Shown here one piece after another: positions 7,184 through 61,981 of a stretch of DNA of 64,000 bases. The notes below the pieces were generated by a model. The model saw only the letters and a list, made by a program, of their open reading frames with translations. It was not told the DNA's origin and searched no databases. Position 1 is the first letter of the stretch, and the number at the start of each line of letters is the position of its first letter. Location: contig OX387604.1 in assembly GCA_947568835.1 (NCBI GenBank), positions 1,572,001-1,636,000 on the forward strand. The letters run 5' to 3'. The position numbers and the translations under genes were made by a program. The stretch is from Protonemura montana (taxonomy: Eukaryota; Arthropoda; Insecta; Plecoptera; Nemouridae).

Positions 7184-8028
7184 CTACAGCAAACTCTTAA
7201 TTGAATATAAAAAGCTTGTAATAATTGGTGCAATTCTCTCTGGATTGTTATTGTGCACGTCGTGGTTGCCTTCAACCAGTTGAACAGTGACATTTTTTTT
7301 TGCCTTGTATGCATCGACAACAGTCTTGAAATCATCCATTTCAAAGAAGCCAACAGTTTCTTGAGCAAGAATGATGAGGTGCGGACAAACTATTTTCTCG
7401 ACCACCTCCAAGTGTTGTTCAACGTACATGAACGGACGCAATCCATTCTTGAGCCGCTGATCTGTTCTAAAACGGTACCCATTGGTAGTGATGAGCAATG
7501 AACGAACGATCAGGGCTTGAGATGCATCAGTGGAGAGCTTGCTACTTCGATTTTCCACCATTCGAGAGAGTGCCTCTTCGAATGAGTAGACGGGCGCCTC
7601 CCTTCTGGCCAGCTTGGTCTCCAGGTCAATGAGGTTGTCGTAAAGCATGCGCTGGCGTGTGAGTATCGAATGTGATGGCATTATCGGGGTTGTCGTGATC
7701 GCATCCAGCATTATGAGCTTGGAGACAGTTTCCGGAAAGAGGGCGGTGTAGAAAGCCCCGATCTGCCCCCCCAGGCTGTGGCCCATGTAGTGGAACTTGG
7801 TCCATTGCATATGCACGATAATCCTCTTCATGGCTGTCACGTAGTCCAGGAAGTTGAGGGGTACTCCAGATGGGAAGTGGGAAGAGTGCCCATGCCCCGG
7901 AAGATCCACTGCGACGAAGTAAAACGAGTTTGGAAGCAGAGGGATGAGTCGGTCGAACGAGCCTGCATTGTCTTGGATTCCGTGGACTGCAAGCACGGGC
8001 CAGCCGCAAGGGTCGTTCCAGCACTTAA
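7184..8028 (-). CDS. Serhl: SERHL-like exon 2 (terminal, catalytic domain)
   Basis: One uninterrupted exon carries nearly the whole hydrolase fold, from VKCWNDPCGW to the stop after SIKSLL. The acceptor is TTTTTCAG|TT. The first two bases complete the split Val codon from exon 1. Confidence 0.92.
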
Positions 8029-8668
8029 CTGAAAAACCAATAGCAAATTTCTCATGTTAGGTTAGCTCAGTTGTTATGCAGCTTACTTTTGGGGTAAGCA
8101 ATCCTCATTTCAATCAGGTAGGCAGCTACTTATGAGTAAGCTGGTTTCTCAAAAAGCTTAAGGCCCACTAAAAGCATGTGCCTCGCCGAGCGCTCATATA
8201 CCAGTTTTTCTAAGACCATCAAAATTTTATTCATCCAGAAGTTTACCTATTTTTTAGGTGCATTATCTTTTGGCTTTTACAGCCCCAGCAGTTATACAAA
8301 GCCGGCGCTGTAGGTAAGACTGTCAATCAACGTCAGCATGCCACCTTGAAGAGATGTCAATAGTTGTATCAAGATTTAGTTTCTTTGTTAGTTTCTGAAC
8401 TAACAAGTTAGTGTACATGACATTGGGCAGTTCATCACAATGTAAGGTTGGGTAAGAAAAGGTTCTCGCAGCAGGCTTAAAGTCTCTGCTGTCAAGCAAA
8501 CCTAAAACAGACTATATTCAAGGTAACCTCAATCAAGAGTTGTTCATTGATTTTCAACTTTGGCAGCACGAAGGTAGACTCACCTGAAATTTGACCCCAT
8601 GGTACAGGAATCTCCTGCTCCGAACAGAATCCAGCAGAAATTGTCGCTGAAGGTGCTACAAGAGCCAT
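7184..8668 (-). CDS. Serhl: SERHL/kraken-like serine hydrolase (alpha/beta hydrolase fold), 2 coding exons
   Basis: Complete coding region in two exons, 8668-8584 and 8028-7184, joined in phase 1 to give 309 residues, close to vertebrate SERHL and fly kraken. The family are alpha/beta-hydrolase serine hydrolases; peroxisomal or vesicular locations have been reported and the natural substrate is poorly defined. Visible landmarks are the N-terminal IPVPWGQIS, the oxyanion-hole HG (residues 44-45) in VLAVHG, DNAGSFDRLIPLL, VDLPGHGHSSH, the nucleophile elbow GHSLGG (Ser113), and VEGNHDVH near the C terminus with the likely catalytic His284. The acid residue is probably Asp137 or one in the C-terminal third. 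A TTTCAG acceptor seven bases before the ATG implies at least one upstream non-coding exon. The gene stands alone and points left. Family assignment is strong; substrate is unknown. Confidence 0.93.
8584..8668 (-). CDS. Serhl: SERHL-like exon 1 (coding part)
   Basis: It encodes 28 residues from MALVAPSATISAG to VPWGQIS plus one base. The donor is CAG|GTGAG. The ATG follows an in-frame-compatible acceptor, so transcription probably starts in a separate upstream exon not identified here. Confidence 0.88.
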
Positions 8669-15351: not shown

Positions 15352-15753
15352 TCATGTGTGCTGTTTCACAACGATCACCCCCGGCCGCTGCTGCTGTTGC
15401 TGCAGAGAGCGAGCCCCGCCGTTGCCAGCGAGCGTGTGGAACTGCAGGTAGGGGTTCATCTCCACCTTGAGCAGGCGATGCGCTACTTGCTGCTGCGTGG
15501 GCTCCCCCACGCCCCCCTCCTTCTTAGTCAGCGCCAAGGGGGCCAGCTGCCCAGCATGAGGTGGGACAGGATGCGGGGTGCCTCCCCCTGCGGTAGCAGC
15601 AGGGGGCTCGTCGCAGAAGAGGTGGTCGCCCTCGAGATGCCGAATAGCTTCAACAATTGTCTCGAGGTTCTGCCGCGAGGTGCTGTTTAGGAAAAGTCGC
15701 GCTTGCGGGATCACGTCCTCGCATGTCGGGGACGGCAGCCGCTCCACCTCAAC
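15352..15753 (-). CDS. TFAP4: TFAP4 exon 5 (terminal)
   Basis: It begins VEVERLPSPTCEDVIPQ, contains the AP-4 signature TSRQNLETIVEAIRHLEG and a Gln5 run, and stops after VVKQHT. The acceptor is CCGCAG|GTT. Confidence 0.93.
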   Translation of the reverse strand, partial: VEVERLPSPTCEDVIPQARLFLNSTSRQNLETIVEAIRHLEGDHLFCDEPPAATAGGGTPHPVPPHAGQLAPLALTKKEGGVGEPTQQQVAHRLLKVEMNPYLQFHTLAGNGGARSLQQQQQRPGVIVVKQHT

Positions 15754-18700
15754 CTGCGGAGATGAGACAAAGCAACAATCAATCCCCAGTCTTCGTTGAG
15801 TACATTGAAAAAGCAGAAGGGACAGAGATAAATAAACCGTATGAATAGGTCACTAATAGGTCACTTAAATTATAGGCCTAGTTCTGCCAATTTCTTTCGA
15901 GTCCCAATCTAGGTCATTAAGAAGTTCAAAATCTTACAAATGGGTCAAGTTGGGACAAATGGCAACAAGTTTGCTCACATTGAAAAAATATTGCTCTCGA
16001 GAAACTTCCTTTCCAATGGCTAGGGGCAGCTTGTACTGAAGGGCCCAGCAGCCTGCCCATTCCAAAAATTGGGGGAAAAAAATTGACTTTGTCATTGATA
16101 TGACAGACATACCCTTTTTTAGCTCGAGCTCTGAGAATTGACCTTATATAAAACCCTTAATCCGTTGCTAAAGCCCGAAATAGTTTGTATCAGTCTGGGA
16201 TGTCTCATTCCACTATATCTTTATAGAAATCGTAAAAATTTGGTCGAAAACGCCGGCGCTTGCGCTAGATCACTTCGTTTTTCGGTTTTACATCCCGCTG
16301 TGGCATTTTCACAGTGATTTGATCGGGTTTTAGTGGTGAAATGTTGAAAATTAACAAAAAATTAACGGAAAATATTCGACAACAATGCACTTTTTTGGTC
16401 ATTTCACCATCGAATTCGTAGCAACGGAAATATAAATTTTAGTGCAACCTTGAGCCCTGAATTTCCGTTGCGACGCTACAAAAAGGCTGGCAAAAAGATC
16501 TGTTCTGAGGAACTGAAATTGCTGAAATCAACTCAAATTTACACATCACTCTTATCTGTCACCTAACACACGGCAGCTGCCTACGCAGCGGGTGGGTCTA
16601 CTAGTGTTCATTTAAAAACCTAGTCTGCACCTAGAGCAGTCAGTGGTTGCTACTGAACAATTATTTTCTAGCCTGTACCAGTATACCAAACGTGAAGTTT
16701 AGCGCCAAAAGTACCTCGATCGATTTTTCCGCATGCTTTCGCTTCAGCAGCGCCCCTCTTTAATCAATAAATATTTAAATCTGCACTTTGGTCCTTGGTA
16801 TATAAGTTGTCCAAATTGCGCACTGTGCCTTAGGGTGCCAAACAACCAAAGAGGGGACAGACCTTTACCTTCGGCTCAGCCTTGATGGCAGCCTCCAACA
16901 CAGACGGCAGCCGCGGATCCATCTCGTCAGGATCCTGGTGCTCCGAGAGGGAGTGGCAGGGGGAGGCGGTGATTGGCATGGAAGGCGGCGGAGACGGCGG
17001 CATGTCAATCGTGGTGGTATGCCCTACAAGGGGCAGGGCGCAAGCAGTCACCACCTGCAGTTGGGCCACTGCCTCGTCTGCCTCGGCTTCATCCACGTCC
17101 ACCTCCAGCTCCGTGTCTGCCACCAGCTCGTGCTCCACGACCTGCAATACCAGTATAAGCGTCAAGGACAGGTTCCTAGTCTAGCCACAGATAAGCACAG
17201 ATACTGATGCATGCTTTGGGAGGTGGGTGCTAAGGCAGATAATGTAAAAAAGCCCTAACCCAAGGCCCAGGCGTCGAGGAACTTTTGATTTCTTTAAAAA
17301 CACTAAGTGAGCACTGTCTTAAGTTTGTAATAACTAAATATTTTGACATATTACTCACAAAAATTCTATCTAGAAGGCAACCTTGCAGTACTCTGCCATT
17401 TAATAACATCATAAATCTGGATGGTGAAAAAATGGTGGACAATGATTTTGCCACCTGCCAATCAAACCACTCATTCGATGGTTTCACGTATTATGTGCAA
17501 AGCGGCATAATTACTGCAGTCATAGCACAAGAATACGTTACATAGACCGCCTAGCTAAGTATCAATCAAGCAGGCACAAAAAGCTGGCTTCACTCGTGAC
17601 ACGACCAATTTGTTAGCTCACCTCTTGGTGGTGGTACTGCAGATGAACCTGCTGGGTGATCTCGCGAATCCTCTCCGGGTAAAGCTGGTGCTCCAGAGAG
17701 CGCACCTGGTCCTCCAGGTGCATGCGTAGACGGCGCTCTCTGTCCAGCTGCCCACGCACCTCGATTACGTCGCGCTCCCCGCCGTCGGGACAATGTGCCA
17801 AGATGGTGATGGGCTCCGGAGACATGGAACCGAGTCCCTCGTCGGAAGACTCGCTGGTCAGCAGAGGCAGGGAAGCCAGAGCCACCCCAGCGTCTAGCTT
17901 CCGCTTTTTCGCGCCGGTCACAGTCCCCGTTACAAGCCCCGTCGAATCGAGCTGCCCCTCGTGCTGGTTCACCAGACGCTTCAGCTGACAATTCTGCGAC
18001 AACAGGCTAGTCTTCTCCTGCTCCAGTTGGTAGATGTACTCGGCAGTCTGCTGCAAGATGGCTGCCTGAAACGTGACAAAGAGAGCATGTTCAGGAAGGA
18101 AATCGTAGCTGATAACTTGCTACAAGTGATAATCACAAACTTGAGCCACAGGAAGCAACTGATAATGTAATGTCCAAATATTTTTGACCTGGCCAATTAG
18201 CGATGTTGGTTTACTCATACCATACTCAGTCATAATTATGGGTATAGGTTTCACCGGGTTGCCACATGAAGTGGCGAATACAAGTCAGGGGTGCAAGGGT
18301 AACACAACATAGAAAAAAAGAAATTTACAAACTCTTTATTCTACTGTAGTTGCTCAGGTATGGTCCTAGCCTTGGACAAAATTTCAGAGCTCTTCTTTAA
18401 AGTGGCCTATGAGCAAACTATAAGGCATGTATTACGAATATAATGTATTTATAGTATTCCTTGGAATTTTGGTACATTTTGAAATGGAGATAGTTTTGCT
18501 TTTTACTGGTATGCATTTACTGGTACGTCATCCTCCAATGACAACATTTCCTTTCAATTGAAAACTTGACTCGGATAAAAAGAGCGCCATTAACATCAGT
18601 CGCTGCAAATTGTTTGCCTGAGGTGACATTTGTTGTGGCTAAGGCATGAAAGTGCAAGCGCAGATTTTCCAGTCGCTAGTCGGTAGCTGCGTGATAGTAC

Positions 18701-21700
18701 TCATGCAGGATAAGTGACCAGCCATACAAGCTTATACTATCCATTTTGACCAACCATTTTTACTGGTGGTTCCAATCCTGAAAATACTATCGTCATTATA
18801 TCTTCGGGCTCTATTAATAGTCCCCCCCCACCCCACCCGAGGGTGGGTCGGGTGGAGAGGCACGACGCGCCTAGCCTCCTGACGGTCTACGCTCAAGGTT
18901 GCCGTTGGTCTGCCGTGCGGAGCGGCGCACAGCCGCATTCTTAGCCTCCTCGCATTCCTGTCTCAGTCCTCCCCTCGTCGCCCCTGCCAGCTTGGTCAGC
19001 CGGTTGAGCCAGCCATCGCTTCCATTGACATACCCCCCCTCCCCCGGCCCTCTTTTCACAGCATGGCGGTCGACATCAGCTGGCTCCGCCCAAAGGACAT
19101 GGAGCCGGTACCCTACCGGCAAAGAATTAGGTGCGCGTGCACCGGACGCTGAACTGCAGCGGCACGTTGTAGCTAGCTTCAGTAAGCCCGTTTTCTCATC
19201 TGCTGACTACATCCATTCTTGCCCACGTCGCGTCAGGGCTAGCCAAGCGACGGCCGTGTAAAAATGCTGCTTATGGATGGACGAGGGGAACCATCTTTAA
19301 GTAGCATCGATCGGGGTGGAGCATTTGGCAGTCGCCCCGTAACACCATGAACGCGCACGACATTTCTTGAGGTTACATCTTTGGGGTTTGGCCCCAGTGG
19401 GCCTTCTTGCAGACAAGACGACACCAATCGCCAGGATGGCATCGCTACCCACGAGGAGCCCCAAGCGAACCGGCGGGGCAGCGTATCTATTTATAGTCTG
19501 ACCAGCCAGCCAGCCGATGGATGGGAGCCCGCCGTGGTATTGACCGTACTCCGTGTTGGCCCTGAGCCTGCCATGCCTCCCCCCCTTCCCCTCACGGTCC
19601 TCATGCCGCCCACAACCCCGGCGCCGCAAGAAGCCGCGACGCATAACACAGCTGTTCCATTTCACCTCCGCCCGATGCGCCGGGCTTGCTTCGCACAGGC
19701 ATCCAAGCCACCCGATGTTGTCACAAGCGGTGGATGGCAGGCGGCGCCGTAAGCATGGCTGGGCATGGAGCCTGACGTAAAGCTGTATCTTATCATAAAA
19801 CCGTCTCGATATGCAATTGCCAACAGTACCAGTCAGCACCAGCGCAGCCCAACAGCATCGTTATCTTTGTTTACGACAGCCAGCTGGCTCAGATCGCGTG
19901 GCACAGCATTGCGCTGAGAACGAGCTGCCGGCTAGACAGCTGATTTGCCGCGAGAGGCTAGCTAGCTCAGGCACTGGCACAACCCATGGCAAGATGAAAG
20001 CGAACGTATGGAACCAAAGGAACACCGACCAAGCTCCTCGCGGGGAAATGAAAGGAAGAGCATCAAGCCAATGCCCGTGACTTACGTTGTTAGTAGCTTA
20101 CTACCTACTCAAATATCTGCGTAGGATTTCAGAGGACGAATAGCGTGTCAAGAGTTCCTTGGACATCTTCAAACCCAATTTATTAGAGTCTTATCAAGAC
20201 AGCTCAAATAAATCTCCCCCGTCTAACGCCGATTTCACAGTCACTCAGAACCAAAATGGTATCCAAATACAAAGAAATTGCCGTAAGCACGTAAGCCGTA
20301 AGCACGAGTCAAATATTACGAATCCCTTAACCATGGATTGTAACTTGTACTTTGATTGTAATTAAAAGTCGAAAACTGTTACAACTATCAAGAATCATGT
20401 CATTCATATGGAGTCCATGCAATATACGCAGATTTTTTTACACCTCGGCGGACTAACATTAAAAAAAAAAACGCATACTCTTTGACGAGCCGTGCCATGG
20501 ACGTTCTCCGAAACTGTTCAGCCAAAAATATCGCTTTCAAAGTTGAATACCAATAGAACCTCAAAAACACATCTGACCAAAACTTCCAATTTCAGGACAT
20601 CGTTCATCCATTGATCTGATGATGTGCACGGATCTTGTAATACACCATCAGGTCTGAGCGAACGAACCCCTGATCCCGCCACTGAACACAATCCAGAGAC
20701 AGGCATGGGGATGTGGGGCTGATACGGATAACGCCCCAAAAATTCTAGTGCCAAAATAGAGTGCGAGTAGAAAATAACGCAAGTATTGCACACCTGGTCG
20801 ACAATTCTGGTCACAATGTTGTAGTATATAGTCGAAGGATCAAGTAACTAAGTGGCTGCCAGTGCTGCCATGGCCACGCCAGTAAACAATGGAATGTGTA
20901 GTGTGTAGACTGGTAGTAGCCGACAGCACACGTGTTAAGTCTGACATGGTAGTGCGTCTGTCCATTCACTGGCCCATTGATACGTCGTCGTCGCCGGAGA
21001 GGCATAGGAGAGGGAGGGGCACCCTTTGCTCCCTTTCCCGGGCACACAACTAGAAAATGTAAGAAGTGGCCAACTTGATGGCAAGCGGTCGGTGGTGCCA
21101 AGGCGGTCAAATGATTCCAGGTGAGCTCTTCGCTAACAAATCACGGGGTCGGACGATATTCCTTTCCGGAGAGCAAAGGACTCGTGCGTGGTGCATTTCG
21201 AGCTGTGTTGCATAAACACGGCCTCTGTGCAAGTCTTGGGGATGTCAACATGGTTTTACCTCCCAGCGCCCGGAGCGAACATTTTGGATTGTGGTGGCGG
21301 TTTTGGGTCGGGGCTAGACCCGGCTGTGCCCCCCCCCCCCCGTCCTCCACCATCACCCTGCGCGCGCCTACGTCTGTGGGAGCATAGGCCAGCAGCGAAC
21401 AAACTGACAGGAATCAATACTCCTTGTCTAGACCTCGCCAAAACCAGCCGAGAAATGTTGGCGTATCCACACACCCTCCGCCCTTGTGCACCCCCACCCC
21501 AACCCCGCCTGCGCTTCTCGACCCCTACCCTTGATGACCCGAACGAGCACTCCTCTCCCAGGCGGGAAGGGGCAATCTTAAAATCAACTCCCACACGAAT
21601 GTTCGGCAATTGAAAGCCAACGCACAATAGGAAGATATGTACCATTATTGCAGATTATATTTGTGATAGCTATAGGTACTAAAAAAAAAAAAAAAAAACA

Positions 21701-24700
21701 CAGACCCCTTAATCACTGGTACACCTATATATATTTGGCAGCCAGAGAATGTGGGAATACAAATCGACAACGGCTGCCCAAATTTGAGACAAACTGACAA
21801 AATTGCTTGAATCCCTGCGCAGGCGTTAGATCGTTGACTAGATCGATCGTAGATCACCCACTATTTTGTCATCGTGACCGAGCTTTAAATGGATTGTTAT
21901 CGGAGACCTTAGCGGATCATCGCTCAGTTTAGCTTTAGGGTGCATGGGTGTCTGCGTAGATGCAAGCCCACAGCGTACCCATAGTAAGTGGAAACCAAGT
22001 GTATATGATATTTTCAGAATAAGACCACCAGTAGAAATATAAAACGTACACCCAAACCATGAGGTCAATGTTGCTACAAGGCTGTGTCACCCAATTTTGC
22101 TTCTGTTACGAATTCCAAGAGTACTTTGGAGCATACAGAGATGGCAATAAGCAACTTACCTTGCTCAGTTTCTCGCCTTCGTGGTGTGGCAGCAGCGTGC
22201 GAAGCGACTGGAACCCAGCGTTGATGCTCTGCATTCGACGGCGCTCGTTAGAGTTCGCAATCTCCCGGCGGATCCTCTTCTCCTGATCCATGTTGTTGGG
22301 ATTGCCAGGAGATGCTGCACGGTCACTCAGTCTGCAAAGCAAATAGCCACAACATGGTCAAACCACCATCCAGCAGTAATCCCAGCTAGTTTGTTCCCGG
22401 GATCACGAACACCTAGCCTAACCAAGATGAATCGGAGATCAAGGCCATATTACTACTGCCCCTGGCATTATCAGTGATATCAGGACAAGGGCAAGCAGGG
22501 GTGGGGGATACATTCATAGAATGAGATATCAACACGCTTAGTTTGATTTAAGCTTTGCCAAGAGCAGCCAAGAGGAACAGTCATTCAACAGGAATCATCC
22601 AATTCTTGAAATGGCATGAGTATAATAATTGTGTCTGCTGCTAGCAAGTTATGAATCACGCCGCTCGGCGGGTCGAGACGTCAGCTGACCGCACAGCTGA
22701 TTGTTCAGCTGATAAGCGTCGCCGGCCCGTGGGATGGGCACTGTAATCGGCGATAACACAACGCTACTGTGAACATTTGACCCCATTCTAGGCTTTCGGG
22801 CAGGGTGCAAAATGTGACAAGCTGACAGCTCGATGTCAGCTGACTGCACAGCTGATTGTGCAGCTGAATGTGCAGCTGATCATGCCCGCTCGGCCGCCCG
22901 CCAGCAGCGTGCCCGCTTGGTGGGCACCGACCGACGCGGGCCCAAACTCCGCAAGGTCATCGCATAACAACAACATCGCGGCGAGCTCTAACACTGGCGT
23001 GATGGAACCTGATTGAAAAAATTTGATCATGGCTGCGATGAAAATAAATCACATGCCGATCTACCAAAAGTGATCTACGTTGAGATCCATATGGGATCAA
23101 ATCTGCCTACGACTCTGCGGCAGGAGGCGACAAAACACCCCCTCAAAAACGCAAAACAAACGAAAATCAAATTCTAACCAACCGATTAGTAATGTGCAAT
23201 CAATTAGATCATTGACTTGATCAACAATTTGATCGGAACATTGTTAGTACCTCAAGATATTGGACTCATTAATACCCTAAAAAGAAGAAGAAACATCGCA
23301 CGAGCCGTTTAAATAATTTCTCCCGATAGCTCGTGCTTGTAAACAATATCCAGAGACTGGGATTGTTGCCGAGGGTTTCTAGATTGAAGGGGTTTTAAAT
23401 ATCAATCCGCCGAGCTGGCAAAATATCTGCTCAATGTCATCATGGGCAACAGTCGCTGGCCGGCGAGGGTTAGCACCAACTAAGGAAATGCAAATCACCC
23501 CAGAATCAAAAACAATTGTTGCCGTCTAGCAACTGAGAGATGCTCTGGATTCCTATGATATATTTCGAAGGGTTTTGACGAAAGCGCCGAACTATAGAAG
23601 AATTAACTGAACTGTAGAGTTTGGTAAGAACTCGCGAGCATAGTTCGGTGCATTCGTTGGTAAAGACTGTCCAATCCGAATCCTTCAGCGGGTCACATGA
23701 GAGCAACCAAATATCCTATCATCATCCCTACTCTCCATGAAAGCGTTTCTAGCACAGAACGTCTCTTCAGTCCAACAATAATTTAACTAGATACCAACAA
23801 TACTTTTACTGAACTGCTACCCGACGTTCATTCTGTACGTGACAGCAACAATGAGCTGTCATTTTTCAACTTCGAAGTCAATGTTAGTCTCATAAACACA
23901 AACCCTTCTAATAAGAAGAACCCTGAAATACGAGAAAAACAGTAGAGGCGTTTTTCGTATATTTTAAGTTAACTTAACCATTTTAGTGCGTACCTAATAT
24001 ATAATAAAATAGGCATACTATCATTTTGTGGCATGTAAAGAATAAAAATACGCAAAAAATAATGCGTAGTTAGAGAAAAGAAATCCAATTGAATCATATA
24101 AAAATATCCTATAAACATTCTATATCATCTCCGACACTACCTGCGCAAAAATTGACGTTGCATAAAAAAATGTGTTCGCTGCAATCAATCATATCGATCA
24201 ATTATTATGCCACAAATGAGCTGAATAGCTTTGTTGTTGGCGGCGGCTGGGACGCTCATGCACGGGATAGCTACACCCGCATAGTTTACAAGTTTCCTAC
24301 ATATAAGCAAAGCTGCTTTTAGCCAGGAAATATTATTATTATATCATATGTTTAGAATGACGCTGGTGATTCATAACGATAGCTAAGTGTTGTCCGGTAC
24401 CAATCCATTTACAAAGGTTATATTGGAAAAACATGGCGAGCAAACAGCTGAGTTTGTCGGCTGGCTGGTGAATCGAACCAGCCAGCCGTTCTCGTAAACG
24501 CCCTAGCTTCTGAGTACAGCTTGGCTGCCATGCTTCCGATAATACGACCTGCGCCGGTTGCCAATAACCCAGTTGACAACCGCACTAAAGCCCAGTTGGA
24601 GATAACATGATGCGCATAATATTTATCTTGCATGTCAGTACAAATATTGCATTATCTAGCAATCTAATATCGCCTAGTGGGGCCAGTAATAACGTGGACA

Positions 24701-24870
24701 CCCACCCACCGGGATCGCGTCATGGCATGGCATGGAGTAAGGTCGGCGGGCCGTCGGCTCAGTGTGCGTCGTGAGATTGCTTACCTGCATAAACTCCCGA
24801 TCACTTCTTCATCTGGATGATGCAACTCATCCAGGCACCGCTGTTCTTCACTCCGATTAAACACTGACAT
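15352..24870 (-). CDS. TFAP4: Transcription factor AP-4 homologue (bHLH-leucine zipper), 5 exons, complete
   Basis: Five exons (24870-24785, 22331-22160, 18065-17622, 17141-16869, 15753-15352) join in phase to 458 residues. AP-4 is a nuclear bHLH-ZIP factor that homodimerises and binds symmetrical CAGCTG E-boxes; the fly gene is cropped. Residues 22-28 match the conserved EVIGSLC leader. The basic region and HLH span about residues 46-105 (RIRREIANSNERRRMQSINAGFQ is near-identical to vertebrate AP-4). They are followed by a first zipper (EYIYQLEQEKTSLLSQN) and a second coiled coil (about 190-230, EDQVRSLEHQLYPERI). DEGLGSMSPE and SRQNLETIVEAIRHLEG (about 350-367) are further AP-4 signatures. 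An acidic, Pro-rich segment lies at 235-325 and a short polyGln near the C terminus. It is longer than human AP-4 because of the acidic insert. Tandem with Sfmbt, which lies about 3.9 kb upstream. Confidence 0.97.
16869..17141 (-). CDS. TFAP4: TFAP4 exon 4 (acidic and proline-rich segment)
   Basis: It codes for 91 residues. The first third is very acidic (ELVADTELEVDVDEAEADEA) and the middle is Pro/Ser/Thr-rich. Both junctions are phase 0 (acceptor TTGCAG|GTC, donor AAG|GTAAAG). The segment is poorly conserved against vertebrate AP-4 and is assigned by splicing phase and position. Confidence 0.87.
17622..18065 (-). CDS. TFAP4: TFAP4 exon 3 (helix 2, zippers)
   Basis: It begins AAILQQTAEYIYQLEQEK and ends in the second coiled coil at QYHHQE. 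It includes a basic KKRK tract and the conserved SSDEGLGSMSPE motif. Acceptor is TTTCAG|GC and donor is GAG|GTGAGC. Confidence 0.95.
18700..21620. other. GC-rich, CpG-rich blocks inside TFAP4 intron 2
   Basis: Intron 2 (18066-22159) contains two GC-rich blocks, about 18810-20080 and 20980-21570, set in AT-rich DNA. They hold long C runs, and long frames are open by composition on both strands, but I see no splice-flanked recognisable exon. They could be intronic regulatory DNA, an alternative promoter or an old insertion. Confidence 0.5.
22160..22331 (-). CDS. TFAP4: TFAP4 exon 2 (basic region, helix 1 and loop)
   Basis: It encodes the DNA-binding basic region ERRIRRE-type block, ANSNERRRMQ, helix 1 and the loop up to GEKLSK. 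Acceptor is TTTGCAG|A and donor is AAG|GTAAGT. The exon boundary after LSK is where vertebrate AP-4 continues AAILQQTAEY. Confidence 0.96.
22682..22878. promoter_or_regulatory. TFAP4: Two 12-bp-phased arrays of CAGCTG E-boxes in TFAP4 intron 1
   Basis: CAGCTG occurs at 22682, 22694 and 22706, and again at 22837, 22849, 22861 and 22873. Within each array the spacing is exactly 12 bp. The two arrays share the start TCAGCTGACYGCACAGCTGA and lie 155 bp apart, so the second looks like a duplicate of the first. CAGCTG is the recognition core of AP-4, the product of this same gene. The positions and spacing are read directly; binding and autoregulation are inferred. Confidence 0.7.
24457..24487. repeat. 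12-bp perfect inverted repeat with 7-nt loop
   Basis: CGGCTGGCTGGT and its exact reverse complement flank GAATCGA. On the minus strand the loop and inner stem read GGTTCGATTC, a match to a tRNA B-box (T-arm), so this may be a relic of a tRNA-derived element. No A-box partner was recognised. Confidence 0.7.
24785..24870 (-). CDS. TFAP4: TFAP4 exon 1
   Basis: It codes for MSVFNRSEEQRCLDELHHP through EVIGSLC plus two bases (AG) of a split Arg codon, with donor CAG|GTAAGC. The ATG sits about 128 bp downstream of an E2F-like site and E-box, which fits a promoter-proximal first exon. Confidence 0.93.
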
Positions 24871-27800
24871 TATGCTTGGTTTAACGATAGTCAAATCACA
24901 AAATATTGTCTCTCACACGCGCAAAAAATAACCATCAACACACGCCAGCCAGCAGCCAGCCCGCACTAGCACTACGCAGTGTTTCGTAATGGCGAGCTTT
25001 GGCGGGAAACAGCTGAAGTTTTCTGGCACGGTTGTACAACTGGGTGTATCAATACGCATTCCCGGTTCGGGTTGTAAACACGTTCATCGAAGATCACCAC
25101 TTATGTTCATATCATTGAATAATTATTTGAATCATTTGAAATGGTAAATGTATCACAATGTATTATATGCGTAGCGATATGAAATAGCCGACTAAACACC
25201 TGGTACTAGTTGGCTGTCTCGCGGAGTTGGACGAGTGATGAGTAAACTGGACGGGCGGGAAGTATCCGATCAACATCTGCCAGCTGTGGCCGGCTAGCCT
25301 CGCACAGGGTCATTGTCTGCAGCGCCAGCAAATATTCCCCTCCTAGCCTCAAACTTCACTATTATTCAGCCCAGCTGGTAGATTTATTGAACATAGCACC
25401 AGCAACATACACACTAAAAATAATGAAATTATTGTTCTCTTAATGTCATTTTAAATAGTTAAATACTGAAGCTCTTCAGTAAAAAGCTAGTGTAATAAAA
25501 GGCGAAATTTCTATGGTAAAAATTTCGTTTCAGACCGAAAATATTGTATAACTCACACAAAATTGGTCACAGGCAATGCATACCATGCCATCTACCCGAC
25601 AAACTAGCAGCTAACCGAAGCAACGGCTCTAAATTTGAATTAAGCGGTAAGCATTTAGCACTTGGCATTATTCTGAGTAATTTGAAAACACGAGGACTTT
25701 AATCATTAATTGGAACGATCCGATCGATACTTGATCAAGGCAACATTATAAATGTTTTTAAATGTTTGTATGTTATAATACAGACATGTTATTTAAGAGA
25801 AGAAATATTTTAGTTTTTAAAGAATGATGACGACCTTTTCCACACTTCTTACTCTGAAAAAAATCTCAAATCAGATGAGAATCAAAAAATGAAATCAGAG
25901 TTGTGCCATGGTTGTATGGGTCGACACAAATCTAATCACAAAATAAATTAGTCGAGGCTAAACAGATGTATCCATCCCATTAAAACCTTCATAACTTAAA
26001 TTAAATGACAAAAATGCATTACCAATATCTAATATTTTCTAAACAAGTAATTTTTTAACAAAATATGTTTTATTCACAGAAGCCTGTACGTAGTGCTGTG
26101 TTCTGGGTGTGAAGCACCTTTGTACATAGTATTTGAAGTCTCCTAATTTTCTTAAAATAGTATTTTTTTTATAAATTAAGAAAAACAAGGGTCTCAAAGC
26201 CATCAAACAAATTTTAAGCAGGCCGGCACATCAGAAATTCTAAAAAAGTTTAAGAATCGCTGATCAACAACATACTTAATTCTGTGTGCGTAAGTGGGAA
26301 CAATTTTTGCAAGCAAAATTTGGTCTGTTTCCTGGTTTATAAACTCTCAATTATTGATTTAACTCTCTCTGAGAATTGAAAGCTTTTCTAACTTACTCAT
26401 TGCCATGAAACATGTTCCGAGTTACGGAGTCCTGAGCTGTCAATGTTTGCAAGTTGTCTACATTCTACAATACCTTGACCACTGAACAGTGATATCGGTG
26501 CTATTGCAATAAATTCTTTATTAAGAATATTCACTCATAAAAACTCATTACCCTCAGGACTTTGAACATCACTTAGTAGGGCAGCGGCATAGCTGAAGAA
26601 ATCAAATTGAAAAAGTGAGCTATTCAGTAAAAAAAGTGTATCAGGTTTTTAGCAGTAGGAACCAATATAGCCTGGTAAATGGGACATGGATTATTATTTT
26701 AATCCAGGTATCTCTGGCATAGCTTCTGCTGGTTTATCAAAGGAGTCCTCTAGCCATTGACTTTAAAATGGCCCCAAAATGCCAAAGTTAAAAATTAAAA
26801 ACATGGAATATCTTGCTATTCCACTGTTCACATTTAATATTAGAAAAAGGATTAGTAGGTGCTTAAGAAAAATTCAAGACAATCAACTTCATAGCCCTAT
26901 TTATTTTCATTTTTTTTTTTAATCTGGTCAAAACAAACATTTGGTTGTCAATGCCAAAGTTGACCACTCTGAACACATGCTCCATGAAGATCATAATAGC
27001 ACAATTATTGCATTGCATACAAAAATCATATATTTTTAATAAACATTTCAATATGCTCCGACTGTTGATCCAAATTTCAATACAGTTTACCATATGACAA
27101 AAATAATCATTATTTTATTTTTCATCATCATTCTTACTTTTCAATTGAAATCATCATCATTAAGGTATTGTAGTAGAGTAATTTTTGGTAACAATTATGC
27201 AAATCGATTTGCGTGATTGTTCCAAAAAATTCCAGTGGCAAACAGCACTATTGTAGGCAGCAAAAATATCTGCCTGGTTTAAGAACTGCTTATAAGTAAA
27301 TTTAAAGAAAAATCGTTCGTTGGCATCGATCAAATAATTGTCAACATTGCCAAAGTGTTAATACTAAATGTACGTGGAACTTCGACACAACCTGAGCATT
27401 CTACATCGAAGTACACCAGGACCATATTGACCGGTCCAAAGTATAGGAGTGAAAGAACTCTATTCCTTGTGCAGAGAGATTAGCTACCCACAGATCCACA
27501 GCAGTAGCCTGCATCACACACAAGAATATTGCTGCTGAATATTGAACATGACTGGTGCCAAATATTAATTAAGCAATAAAACGTGGCTAAAAATATACGG
27601 TAAACATGTAGCTAAAAAAAAAGAAAGGCCAAACCAGAGTATGTCAATGACTCACAATCATTGCAAATTTGTCTGGGGATTTAAATGTAACAATCAGTGC
27701 TTCATTTATGTATCAAGATGGGTTCCCTAACTGCTCGACACATTTAGAGAAGTGATTTCTGCAGCAGTTGGTGCAATTGGCAAGAAAATCCAATAGATTG

Positions 27801-28720
27801 CAGATAGGTACCAATTAGGTTTGGTAAGACAATTCTATAATGAAATGCAACAAGGCAACAATGCTAGGCCAGAAAATGGCACACATTTGGGATGCATTAG
27901 ATTGGTGTGAGTTGACGTATCATTTGGCCCATGAGTTATGTGTTAACTCATTATTCGAGAGGAGGCAACCGTGAATATAACATTCTCGGTTTCTCAAGTT
28001 ATCAGTCCCATTACGTCGCTGTGGCTTTACCCGACATGAGAAAAGAACAAACGTCTCCTAACGTCTTGATAACGATAGTGATTGTACTTTGTGTGGTCGC
28101 ATTAATAAATATCTGCACCGTCCAAAAGAAGGCACTTTATCGGGTCTAACACATTTACAAACGATTGATACTAATATGTTGTGTATGAAATTATCTTACT
28201 AGACTTCATTGATCAGAGGTATGTGCTCAGCAATAGCTTTACTGAACAACTAATCAGTAATCGGGTATGTAGGTATATTTCTATACACAAAAATGACATT
28301 AGTGAATGAAATTAATTGACAGTTTGCAACCATCTCTGACTCCTTTGGTTGGCTAGCATCGAAACCTTCGAAATCTCTAAAAAAAAAACTCGTGATGTCG
28401 TAACACCAACTGATTGGATCAGGCTGGTACAAAAGCTGATGGGCAGATAGTGTTTCTTGCCCTTAGATGCCATGTGGAATAGAGTTCTTCCTTCCTTTCT
28501 AACAGAACAAAGTAGGGCATGAAAGCTACTTTTGTTGGGATCAGTAGCTGGCACACACTATTAGCAGCCACTATTAGCAGCCAGCACCGAACTTGTTCCA
28601 TAATTGCCTCGTCACGCTAGTTAGAATTATTGTTCATTATCACAGACTTAAGGGCGACTCTTTGGTGCAAACACGGGGAAATGGAGAGTCCGCTATCGCA
28701 CGTTCACTCACGTGGGCGCA
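24871..28720. other. Sfmbt-TFAP4 intergenic region
   Basis: It holds the TFAP4 upstream region on the left (24.87-25.4 kb, GC-richer and with E-boxes) and the Sfmbt 3' flank on the right. The middle is AT-rich with no recognisable exon. A 72-codon plus-strand frame at 27931-28149 ends in a hydrophobic segment; it is discussed separately and not called a gene. Confidence 0.5.
24998..25015. promoter_or_regulatory. TFAP4: E2F-like site abutting a CAGCTG E-box, TFAP4 promoter
   Basis: TTTGGCGGGAAA (24998-25009), a textbook E2F consensus match, is directly followed by CAGCTG (25010-25015). The pair lies about 128 bp upstream of the TFAP4 start codon. Further CAGCTG copies occur upstream at 25281 and 25372, and one lies inside intron 1 at 24445. 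This suggests cell-cycle control combined with AP-4 or other bHLH input. Confidence 0.6.
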
Positions 28721-41877
<13,157 letters not shown>

Positions 41878-42924: not shown

Positions 42925-43421
42925 TGGTATCTGGCCATGTGGAACTGGTATAATGGCGTCGGTGAATGAGTGGATGATGATGAGGATGATGATGAACGTA
43001 ATCTAGCCTGGAAGGAAGAAGGGAAAACCCGGTGCCGGCACGTGGCTTACTCTGTCGCACAGAGCCAAGGGGACCACCGGCTTAAAGTCCTTTCTGAATG
43101 ACGGTACAATGTGAACAACAAAATTCTTCCATAAATCCATGCTGTCGAGAGGTTGATAAGCAAGGCGAGTGAAGTTCCTGTACTAACTTTCATCCCTCCA
43201 ACCTCTCTCCCGAACAGAACTGGTCATGTGTATGATAGTCACCCATCCAATACCTAACCCAGCGCAGTGTTGCTTAACTTTCATCCCTCCAACCTCTCTC
43301 CCGAACAGAACTGGTCATGTGTATGATAGTCACCCATCCAATACCTGACCCAGCGCAGTGTTGCTTAACATTCATCCCTCCAACCTCTCTCCCGATCAGA
43401 ACTGGTCATGTGTATGATGGA
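42925..43421 (-). mobile_element. 5S-derived SINE with triplicated head
   Basis: The minus-strand body at 42925-43186 includes the conserved CCGGTGCCGGCACGTGGC and AAGGGGACCACCGGCTTAA blocks. The 91-bp head unit is then repeated in tandem (43187-43277, 43278-43368, and a truncated third to about 43421). Two units contain, on the minus strand, GTTAAGCAACACTGCGCTGG and ATTGGATGGGTGAC, clear 5S rRNA matches. Confidence 0.8.
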
Positions 43422-43445: not shown

Positions 43446-45505
43446 TAGTTCTACGGTAGGTAAATAGGTTGGTATTAGGTTGGTACTAGGTTTGTACAAG
43501 GTTGGTATTAGGTTGGTGTTAGGTTGGTACTAGGTTTGTACAAGGTTGGTATTAGGTTGGTATTAGGTTGGTACTAGGTTTGTACAAGGTTGGTATTAGG
43601 TTGGTATTAGGTTGGTACTAGGTTTGTACAAGGTTGGTATTAGGTTGGTACGAGGTTGGTATTAGGTTTGTACAAGGTTGGTACTAGGTTGGTATTAGGT
43701 TTGTACAAGGTTGGTACGAGGTTGGTATTAGGTTGGTACAAGGTTGGTATTAGGTTTGTACAAGGTTGGTATTAGGTTGGTATTAGGTTGGTACGAGGTT
43801 GGTATTAGGTTGGTACAAGGTTGGTATTAGGTTTGAACAAGGTTGGTATTAGGTTTGTACAAGGTTGGTATTAGGTTGGTATTAGGTTGGTACGAGGTTG
43901 GTATTAGGTTGGTACAAGGTTGGTATTAGGTTTGAACAAGGTTGGTATTAGGTTTGTACAAGGTTGGTATTAGGTTGGTATTAGGTTGGTACTAGGTTTG
44001 TACAAGGTTGGTATTAGGTTGGTATTAGGTTGGTACTAGGTTTGTACAAGGTTGGTATTAGGTTGGTATTAGGTTGGTACTAGGTTTGTACAAGGTTGGT
44101 ATTAGGTTGGTACGAGGTTGGTATTAGGTTTGTACAAGGTTGGTACTAGGTTGGTATTAGGTTTGTACAAGGTTGGTATTAGGTTGGTACGAGGTTGGTA
44201 TTAGGTTGGTACAAGGTTGGTATTAGGTTTGTACAAGGTTGGTATTAGGTTGGTACGAGGTTGGTATTAGGTTGGTACAAGGTTGGTATTAGGTTTGAAC
44301 AAGGTTGGTATTAGGTTTGTACAAGGTTGGTATTAGGTTGGTATTAGGTTGGTACGAGGTTGGTATTAGGTTGGTACAAGGTTGGTATTAGGTTTGTACA
44401 AGGTTGGTATTAGGTTGGTATTAGGTTGGTACGAGGTTGGTATTAGGTTGGTACAAGGTTGGTATTAGGTTTGAACAAGGTTGGTATTAGGTTTGTACAA
44501 GGTTGGTATTAGGTTGGTATTAGGTTGGTACGAGGTTGGTATTAGGTTGGTACAAGGTTGGTATTAGGTTTGAACAAGGTTGGTATTAGGTTTGTACAAG
44601 GTTGGTATTAGGTTGGTACGAGGTTGGTATTAGGTTGGTACAAGGTTGGTATTAGGTTTGTACAAGGTTGGTATTAGGTTGGTATTAGGTTGGTATTAGG
44701 TTGGTATTAGGTTTGTACTAGGTTGGTATTAGGTTGGTATTAGGTTGGTATTAGGTTGGTACTAGGTTGGTATTAGGTTGGTATTAGGTTGGTATTAGTT
44801 TGGTATTAGGTTGGTACAAGGTTGGTACGAGTTTGGTATTAGGTTTGTACAAGGTTGGTATTAGGTTGGTATTAGGTTGGTATTAGGTTTGTACAAGGTT
44901 GGTATTAGGTTTGTACAAGGTTGGTATTAGGTTTGTACAAGGTTGGTATTAGGTTGGTATTAGGTTGGTACTAGGTTTGTACAAGGTTGGTATTAGGTTG
45001 GTATAAGGTTGGTATTTGGTTGGTATTAGGTTGGTATTAGGTTGGTATTAGGTTTGTACAAGGTTGGTATTAGGTTGGTATTAGGTTGGTATTAGGTTTG
45101 TACAAGGTTGGTATTAGGTTTGTACAAGGTTGGTATTAGGTTTGTACAAGGTTGGTATTAGGTTAGTATTAGGTTGGTACTAGGTTGGTATTAGGTTGGT
45201 ACAAGGTTGGTATTAGGTTGGTATTAGGTTGGTATTAGGTTTGTACAAGGTTGGTATTAGGTTTGTACAAGGTTGGTATTAGGTTTGTACAAGGTTGGTA
45301 TTAGGTTGGTATTAGGTTGGTACTAGGTTTGTACAAGGTTGGTATTAGGTTGGTATTAGGTTGGTATTTGGTTGGTATTAGGTTGGTATTTGGTTTGTAC
45401 AAGGTTGGTATTAGGTTGGTATAAGGTTGGTATTAGGTTAGTATTAGGTTGGTATTAGGTTGGTATTAGGTTGGTATTAGGTTAGTATTAGGCAGGTACT
45501 AGATA
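43446..45505. repeat. 2-kb minisatellite, 11-bp unit GGTTGGTATTA with higher-order structure
   Basis: Roughly 185 units of the 11-mer GGTTKGTAYWA follow without interruption. Main variants are GGTTGGTATTA, GGTTTGTACAA, GGTTGGTACTA, GGTTGGTACGA, GGTTGGTACAA and GGTTTGAACAA. They are arranged in nested higher-order repeats: a 44-bp, 4-unit pattern near the start and a 99-bp, 9-unit pattern from about 43.75 to 44.6 kb. The unit length is not a multiple of three and TTAG stops occur in every frame, so it is non-coding. Confidence 0.97.
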
Positions 45506-58786: not shown

Positions 58787-58866
58787 CTGCAACTTGCTGC
58801 AAGATGCTGCAAGGTGCTGCAACTTGCTGCAAGGTGCTGCAACTTTCTTCAAGATGATGCAAGGTA
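58787..58866. repeat. 10-bp tandem repeat, about 8 copies
   Basis: Units alternate CTGCAACTTG and CTGCAAGGTG with minor changes (CTGCAAGATG, CTTCAAGATG), so there is a weak 20-bp super-period. Confidence 0.85.
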
Positions 58867-59049: not shown

Positions 59050-59867
59050 AATGCAAGGGGATCCTTGAACAAAACTGCAAGCGAGCATTGTGGCTTCTTC
59101 TAGCTGCAGCAAACGCTAAGTTGCCATCCAAATAATAACAGTTCATACAACAAAGTAAGCAAGCATTATATTCTTCCTCATCTTCATTAGAAGCATCTAT
59201 ACGCTCGACCGCATGATTATATACGTACATGGGCAAAGCCATCAAGTAATTTCCTGCCTTTTCCGTGCTACGAGGAGAAAAGCATCGTAAATTTTAAACA
59301 CATCTGAACCGATTAAGATTGAAGGATCAGCTGACGTGCGTGGGTGCAGTGGTGGGTGGGTGTGGGAGAGTTAGGGTTATAAACAATGGGCAGGAAATTG
59401 CCCCAACCCAGTGTGCACCTCCATTCATGGTCCAAACGCACTGCGGCGCCCTTCGCTGACGTATACCAGGATTCCGGTTCCGGCCTATGTTTCTTATGCG
59501 TCTTTCTTTTATCCCGACCCCCTCATTCATGCACCGAGCGATTTAAAACTACCTTGTCCATCTCACTACAGTGAACAAATATGAACGCGTACTAAATTAA
59601 CCTATATTCAACATATTTTAAAATGTATTCCATCCCGTAACTACAATATAGTTTTCACAGTCTAAGTCACAAGTACGCCAAATGAATCAAATTTAGCAGA
59701 ATACTTGTTTTAATATTAAATTGTATTAATTATGCAAAAACACGACAGAGAGTGCCATGAATCATCGTTTTACACCCACGCTTTAAATATTTCATTGTGA
59801 TGAACTGCCCGATGCCGAGCTGGGTGACTGTTTTCGGTTTTCAATTGGTTTGCATAGTTTTAATGTG

Positions 59868-60168
59868 TGACAAGTCTACGTGCGGTCGTGTGATCAGTCT
59901 ACGTGCTGTCGTGTGATCAGTCTACGTGCTGTCGTGTGATCAGTCTACGTGCTGTCGTGTGATCAGTCTACGTGCTGTCGTGTGATCAGTCTACGTGCTG
60001 TCGTGTGATCAGTCTACGTGCTGTCGTGTGACAAGTCTACGTGCTGTCGTGTGATCAGTCTACGTGCTGTCGTGTGATCAGTCTACGTGCTGTCGTGTGA
60101 TCAGTCTACGTGCTGTCGTGTGATCAGTCTACGTGCTGTCGTGTGATCAGTCTACGTGCTGTCGTGTG
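59868..60168. repeat. 23-bp satellite, about 13 copies
   Basis: GTCTACGTGCTGTCGTGTGA plus TCA is repeated about 13 times with very little divergence. The first copy has GCGGTCG and two copies have ACA in place of TCA at the end. Such homogeneity suggests recent expansion. Confidence 0.95.
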
Positions 60169-60968
60169 AGATTCGGCCGATACGGTCATGATCCATATTG
60201 CATATAAAACCCCAAAATCATAGCCCAAGGATCAAGGCCTCCTCTAAGCGGCCGGTCACTGGAAAACGATGTAGCACGACGGAACTCTTTTCCGGATCCA
60301 GGATCTTGCTTTCAAAACCGGTCCCGTGAACGCCAGGAAAACCCAGCATCTCGGGGAAAGTGTGGCTGGAAGAGTGTTGACATATTTATAACTGAATTTC
60401 GAACTGAATTATTTTGGTCTAGAAGGTTTCACCGATCGCTTCAAGTGTATGAAAATGTAAAATCAGGATTCAGGATCATCAGCATTCCAAGTAAAATCTC
60501 AGGTATCACGCATTGGACGTCGATGCTTGACGCAAGAATTGAACTACGTCTGATAGACGGTGATAAACTCTGGAACACGAATGCCCCTCGCTTGACCTCT
60601 CTCTGTCTTTTCTCTCAGCATCTTTCACTGCGTAGATCTTGTTGCCTTTTTGAGTTCACTTTCCTTTCCTTTGCTGTCTTTGTGGTCGCTACTTCATAAG
60701 TTGAATTCAGCTTTAAAAACGAGGCTTCCCCATTAATTATATTTCTTTAATTATTATTTGTTTGGAGTCATGCTTTTCGTCAAATTGTGGATGATATTTT
60801 TATTATTTATTATTTATATACTTATAATTTACTATCTTGGCAGACCATTTCAAAAGTGTTTTCCTACGTTAGTGCTGTGGTCCTTTATTTAGCTTTTCGA
60901 GGTGATTTATGCGTCAACCACCTTCAACCAATACTGCATTTACATCTTATTCAATTCGGTAAATTCAT

Positions 60969-61062: not shown

Positions 61063-61240
61063 AAACAAAAAGAAAAAGACTGTTCCTCTTACAAAAAAGA
61101 GCACCAAGACGAATGAGAAATACCAGCTCAGATCCTTGGTCTGAGTTTTAGGTGATAGACTCGTGTAGAACCCTTTTTAGAAACTGAAATGTACTGACGT
61201 TAATATGTTTATATAATTGTAATGTAATTATGTATGTGGT

Positions 61241-61981
61241 TAATGGCAAGAGATTGGTTAATGGTAAGAGCTTGGTTAATGGCAAGAGATTGGTTAATGG
61301 CAAGAGCTTGGTTAATGGCAAGTTAATGGTTAATGGCAAGAGATTGGTTAATGGCAAGAGATTGGTTAATGGCAAGAGATTGGTTAATGGCAAGAGATTG
61401 GTTAATGGCAAGAGATTGGTTAATGGCAAGAGATTGGTTAATGGCAAGAGATTGGTTAATGGCAAGAGCTTGGTTAATGGCAAGTTAATGGTTAATGGCA
61501 AGAGATTGGTTAATGGCAAGAGATTGGTTAATGGCAAGAGATTGGTTAATGGCAAGAGATTGGTTAATGGCAAGAGATTGGTTAATGGCAAGAGATTGGT
61601 TAATGGCAAGAGATTGGTTAATGGCAAGAGATTGGTTAATGGCAAGAGCTTGGTTAATGGCAAGAGCTTGGTTAATGGCAAGAGATTGGTTAATGGCAAG
61701 AGCTTGGTTAATGGCAAGTTAATGGTTAATGGCAAGAGCTTGGTTAATGGCAAGAGATTGGTTAATGGCAAGAGATTGGTTAATGGCAAGAGATTGGTTA
61801 ATGGCAAGAGCTTGGTTAATGGCAAGAGCTTGGTTAATGGCAAGAGATTGGTTAATGGCAAGAGATTGGTTAATGGCAAGAGCTTGGTTAATGGCAAGAG
61901 CTGGGTTAATGGCAAGAGCTTGGTTAATGGCAAGAGCTGGGTTAATGGCAAGAGATTGGTTAATGACAAGAGCTTGGTTAA
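61241..61981. repeat. 18-bp minisatellite, about 41 copies, open in several frames
   Basis: The unit is TTGGTTAATGGCAAGAGA, with a common C variant (GAGC) and a rarer variant in which ATGGCAAG is followed by TTAATGG. Because 18 is divisible by three, stops are absent from two plus frames and one minus frame. The translations are (VNGKRL)n, (MARDWL)n and (NLLPLT)n. Apart from the repeat there is no sign of a gene. Confidence 0.95.

Follow-up and report, generated by a model that had tools for sequence, protein, structure and literature searches.

The TFAP4/cropped-like gene and its surroundings

The window analysed here is the whole 64,000-nucleotide stretch of Protonemura montana DNA, and positions are given in its coordinates unless a contig is named. 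Its minus strand carries a TFAP4/cropped-like gene, and two arrays of CAGCTG hexamers lie in the predicted intron 1 of this gene. The gene model comprises the following features.

24785..24870, minus strand: predicted coding exon 1, encoding MSVFNRSEEQRCLDELHHPDEEVIGSLC followed by a split codon; its phase fits exon 2
22332..24784, minus strand: predicted intron 1, 2,453 nt, holding the two arrays upstream of exon 2 at a distance of 351-547 nt
22160..22331, minus strand: exon 2, encoding the basic region and the start of the helix-loop-helix (LSDRAASPGNPNNMDQEKRIRREIANSNERRRMQSINAGFQSLRTLLPHHEGEKLSK)
17613..18065, minus strand: exon 3 region, encoding the rest of the helix-loop-helix and the leucine zipper (AAILQQTAEYIYQLEQEKTSLL); its low end, 17613, is the end of the open reading frame and not a mapped donor
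15352..15849, minus strand: open reading frame with the presumed last coding exon (STSRQNLETIVEAIRHLEGD), which is tentatively assigned to TFAP4 by likeness

The open frame around exon 2 (22106-22357) matched PF00010 with an E value of 8.5e-13, and Pfam gave no match in three of the four presumed TFAP4 open frames, the one at 15352..15849 among them. The bHLH domain is interrupted by an intron within the helix-loop-helix and followed by a leucine zipper, as in TFAP4/cropped, with exon 3 continuing AAILQQTAEYIYQLEQEKTSLLSQN. The gene probably resembles TFAP4 in particular, and EEVIGSLC in exon 1 presumably resembles the N-terminus of vertebrate TFAP4; the three matches in the PDB were other bHLH proteins. 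The donor of exon 1 at 24785 obtained the best score (11.5) across 22331-28720 under a table of donor-site scores. When the 43-residue exon-2 peptide was searched against the genome, the TFAP4-like gene was the sole match (two candidates scored), which gave no sign of a second, closely related AP-4 gene. The TFAP4-like identity put forward in the original prediction is supported, and the placement of the arrays in intron 1 rests on predicted exons 1 and 2.

Two other assignments of the array region were rejected. The stretch at 22.5-25.4 kb keeps its CpGs, which would suit a promoter, yet predicted exon 1 lies at 24785-24870, so that in the gene model the array is intronic; transcription may also start closer to exon 2. 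A coding repeat was also discarded, as the predicted TFAP4 exons do not cover the array and the open frames across it look incidental. Beside the CpG-intact stretch, the observed/expected ratio of CpG falls to between 0 and 0.44 at 25900-27199, perhaps marking a methylation border around the 5' end of TFAP4. Further upstream of TFAP4 lies an L3MBTL-like neighbour on the minus strand (28721-36508), in which Pfam identified a SAM domain (28721-28924) and an MBT repeat (31172-31465); additional MBT-like open frames on this strand, judged by eye, extend up to 36508. An alpha/beta-hydrolase open frame of 290 aa was also seen at 7184-8056 on the minus strand.

Structure and duplication history of the arrays

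Seven perfect CAGCTG hexamers lie within 197 bp (22682-22878), three in one array and four in the other with exact 12-bp spacing, and all coordinates given for them in the original prediction were right. The hexamers, their worn neighbours and the duplicated block are as follows.

22682..22711, strand not applicable: array 1, three CAGCTG starting at 22682, 22694 and 22706, 12-bp spacing
22837..22878, strand not applicable: array 2, four CAGCTG starting at 22837, 22849, 22861 and 22873, 12-bp spacing
22818..22836, strand not applicable: worn units bordering array 2 on its left, with CAAGCTGA at 22818-22825 and CAGCTC at 22826-22831
22677..22712, strand not applicable: duplicated 36-bp block, copy 1, identical to copy 2 at 33/36 positions
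22832..22867, strand not applicable: duplicated 36-bp block, copy 2, identical to copy 1 at 33/36 positions

All seven copies read CAGCTGA. The six bases 3' of the hexamers are, in order, ACCGCA, ATTGTT and ATAAGC (array end) in array 1 and ACTGCA, ATTGTG, AATGTG and ATCATG (array end) in array 2. The worn CAGCTC begins 11 bp before the first perfect CAGCTG of array 2. TRF reported array 2 with a period of 12, 4.0 copies and 80% match, that is, as head-to-tail units of constant period, the hallmark of a tandem repeat; array 1 was absent from the TRF output at score 50. As to the "microsatellite-like slippage" suggested earlier, a unit of 12 bp is usually called a minisatellite.

The two copies of the 36-bp block are 155 bp apart, and all three of their mismatches fall outside the hexamers. 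The sharing between the arrays, previously put at about their first 20 bases, is real and extends further, over 36 bp at 33/36 identity. Because the arrays share this block, the proposed tandem plus segmental duplication of an E-box unit is well supported, and the cluster is best explained as having arisen by duplication rather than by independent hits. In the history that we propose, a unit containing CAGCTGA would have been duplicated in tandem, and the three-unit 36-bp block would then have been copied 155 bp away, or a single longer array would have been split; later drift would have affected the spacers and edge units.

Background frequency of CAGCTG

The window contains 36 CAGCTG, compared with a mean of 14.4 in 100 shuffles (sd 3.9, largest 23). 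Among 60 sequences of 64 kb simulated with a first-order Markov model, which was trained on window positions 20001-26000 with the array included, the most CAGCTG found in 197 bp was three, and no CAGCTG pair at 12-bp distance occurred. The density of the hexamer was 0.56 per kb in the window versus 0.37 per kb in the background, which consisted of 14 stretches of this genome, each 10 kb long and with 0 to 10 CAGCTG. With the arrays left aside, nine CAGCTG lie in the gene body (15352-24871) versus 3.5 expected (p 0.01), three of which (15544, 17745 and 17982) are inside presumed coding frames, and the 1 kb upstream of the TFAP4-like start codon holds three versus 0.37 expected (p 0.006). These Poisson p values are optimistic because the background stretches differ so widely in their counts (0 to 10). 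The remainder of the window contains 17 CAGCTG versus 19.9 expected.

Other 6-mers with at least seven copies in 197 bp, homopolymer words excluded, formed 22 regions in the 140-kb background. Six of these regions were inspected and proved to be satellites or irregular GC-rich or coding-like clusters; among them, resemblance to the CAGCTG array was only partial, in the GAAGAA region of L015. As a separate observation, GCTAGC occurred at 1.65 per kb in background stretches L009-L022 and at 0.33 per kb in the window, and it is perhaps satellite-derived.

Genome-wide occurrence of the arrays

A DNA search that skipped simple repeats returned a single match for the 281-bp array stretch in the 258-Mb genome, namely the stretch itself. 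The degenerate two-unit pattern CAGCTGANYGYNCAGCTGA had six matches in the genome, five of them at the AP-4 locus; two units that come close to this pattern at C3:23386126 (L027) are most simply put down to chance. An origin as a dispersed repeat is ruled out by the single DNA match together with the local position of five of the six CAGCTGANYGYNCAGCTGA matches. Dispersal of the 12-bp unit across the genome, which the original prediction had named as counter-evidence, was not observed in these searches.

Three CAGCTG phased at 12 bp gave 51 forward-strand matches, and the 50 listed ones fall in eight loci. In the seven other listed phased loci, five of which were read as sequence (L001 and L023-L026) and two by their matched strings (C13 and C14:2269), the spacers of the matched strings are identical or differ at one position. 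Only the AP-4 locus, among the eight listed, combines perfect hexamers with spacers differing at more than one position. Moreover, the hexamer itself varies at neighbouring units in L024 (CAGCAG and CACCAG) and L025 (TAGCTG). Loose three-site CAGCTG clusters had 1,077 matches in the genome versus 166 for the reversed word, and many of the loose triplets among approximately the first 100 matches listed belong to an 8-bp CAGCTGAC repeat.

Several other repeats were seen in the window and the genome. Among the matches listed, CAGCTGACCAGCTGACCAGCTG recurs with an 8-bp step on G000 C1 and C2 (for example at C1:292667 and C1:3726067), several times in copies about 1.09 kb apart, which suggests a family of tandem or mobile repeats. 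The window also contains a 2-kb satellite at 43465-45492 with an 11/22-bp unit (TAGGTTGGTAT; 92 copies of 22 bp in TRF), adjoined by a 91-bp repeat at 43184-43418, and two minisatellites, one at 61237-61981 (18-bp unit, 41 copies) and the other at 59865-60169 (23-bp unit, 13 copies). In addition, a second full COX1 match at G000 C4:5760925-5762262 scored equal to the C34 copy, and partial COX1 copies are present on C4 and C12; these extra copies represent either mitochondrial sequence included in the nuclear assembly or a misassembly. Mitochondrial proteins read with translation table 5 point to an arthropod.

Changes in hexamers and spacers

Of the changes inferred within the arrays, six lie in the 30 positions of the internal spacers and none in the 42 positions of the hexamers (Fisher p 0.004). 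When the worn edge units were included, eight of 36 spacer positions and two of 54 hexamer positions had changed (p 0.013). The change events were counted by hand, and the contrast is post hoc, between parts of units that were themselves recognised by the hexamer.

As a control, we collected the TRF arrays in the window and the background (204 kb) with a period of 9-16, at least three copies and no more than 92% match. Four of these 24 degenerate short arrays, array 2 among them, have a block of seven or more invariant columns. The control scores ungapped columns and, of the two CAGCTG arrays, judges array 2 alone, with three whole units in the TRF borders and four in the borders drawn by hand. 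The other three long-block arrays are at window position 58787 (81% match), L014 9701 (87%) and L020 1931 (90%), of which only that at 58787 is as degenerate as array 2. Since four of 24 control arrays hold a long invariant block, a kept hexamer with drifted spacers need not mean selection. The spacer/hexamer contrast, the uniqueness of the AP-4 locus among the eight listed loci and the gene-wide CAGCTG excess lean toward function, and they are post hoc and small.

Competing explanations for the arrays

Taken together, the array in intron 1 of the TFAP4-like gene is probably a short minisatellite of degenerate 12-bp units, with a cluster of bHLH sites as its by-product. It resembles other short degenerate minisatellites in its period of 12, its three to four units, the 80% match of array 2, the worn edge and the two-step duplication; it differs from them in that the unchanged core here is the very word that the product of the host gene binds. 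The by-product would be seven strong E-boxes in an intron, nearly on one helix face, because a step of 12 bp should turn successive sites by about 51 degrees and leave neighbouring dimers near one face. AP-4 homodimers or other CAGCTG-preferring bHLH dimers would be expected to occupy these sites wherever chromatin is open. An effect on AP-4 transcription is conceivable but doubtful, and its likeliest form would be dose-dependent feedback through the homotypic site cluster.

A rather unlikely alternative is that the arrays are maintained for autoregulation, in which AP-4 homodimers would fill the seven sites and recruit activators or repressors to give steep feedback, with selection keeping CAGCTG as the spacers drift. 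The preference assumed for AP-4 is in print, as the factor is described as binding mainly CAGCTG and exclusively as homodimers (PMC7914591), although a table in another source files Ciona AP4 under bHLH group B, binding CACGTG or CATGTTG (PMC7693978). CACGTG does not occur in predicted intron 1. The hexamers are invariant where spacers have changed (p 0.004 to 0.013), and the hexamer varies in two other phased arrays (L024 and L025); however, long invariant cores are also found in other degenerate arrays (four of 24, array 2 included), and array 2 has worn units along its left border. The excess of CAGCTG outside the arrays (nine versus 3.5 in the gene body and three versus 0.37 upstream) also favours autoregulation. 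Homotypic clustering is reported to boost binding and response, and some bHLH factors pair on tandem E-boxes, in a passage that does not name AP-4 (PMC8431614). In human TFAP4, control by MYC/MYCN through CACGTG E-boxes in intron 1 is known (PMC5342392, PMC6172192). This presumed orthologue also has an E-box cluster in intron 1, but its sites are CACGTG bound by MYC/MYCN, whereas those described here are CAGCTG, with no CACGTG. The autoregulatory enhancers of HES-1 (N boxes), Drosophila atonal and Math1 likewise have several sites for the gene's own factor in or near the gene, but function is reported for them and conjectured here, and the sites here form a phased tandem repeat. For several bHLH genes of Ciona, negative autoregulation is suggested in passages that do not count AP4 among them (PMC7693978). 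No report of AP-4 binding to its own gene was found in a search of largely open-access literature. Considering what is published on AP-4 binding, bHLH clustering and TFAP4 intron 1 control, feedback would be plausible, and real AP-4 feedback through the array is possible but less likely than not. It is improbable that the intron has grown a feedback dial, in which 12-bp slippage would multiply sites and copy number would tune self-control and could vary between individuals.

AP-4 probably prefers A or T beside its site, and proneural factors G or C. The base after CAGCTG is A in all seven sites and C in none, which would speak against the array being the target of another CAGCTG-preferring bHLH factor of the achaete-scute, MyoD or E-protein type, with the AP-4 gene downstream of that factor and not a self-regulator. 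The seven A-flanked sites are not seven independent facts, because the units descend from one another. Group A bHLH factors are described as binding CAGCTG or CACCTG (PMC7693978), but we consider this reading very unlikely. An RNA-level element, that is, a structure formed in the intron ahead of the 3' splice site of exon 2, appears weak and extremely unlikely: folding of the transcribed strand is slightly stronger than that of shuffled sequences (z -2.36; 3/200 shuffles as good), but an array of palindromes folds by nature, Rfam at gathering score gave zero matches in 22100-25500, and the array is 351-547 nt away from the splice site.

Implications

The match between the motif and the gene that holds it is striking, yet luck could yield it in a whole-genome reading for such coincidences. 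Transcription factor genes number on the order of 600. Taking this figure with about eight phased loci per motif and a 12-kb gene in 258 Mb, we infer as a rough estimate that about 0.2 such self-motif coincidences would be expected per genome. If the array is not functional, it would serve as a useful warning that, in genomes rich in repeats, chance can produce self-matching motif clusters. Should the array prove to be bound and to tune AP-4, this would represent a clean natural feedback loop, with its gain set by the copy number of a tandem repeat.
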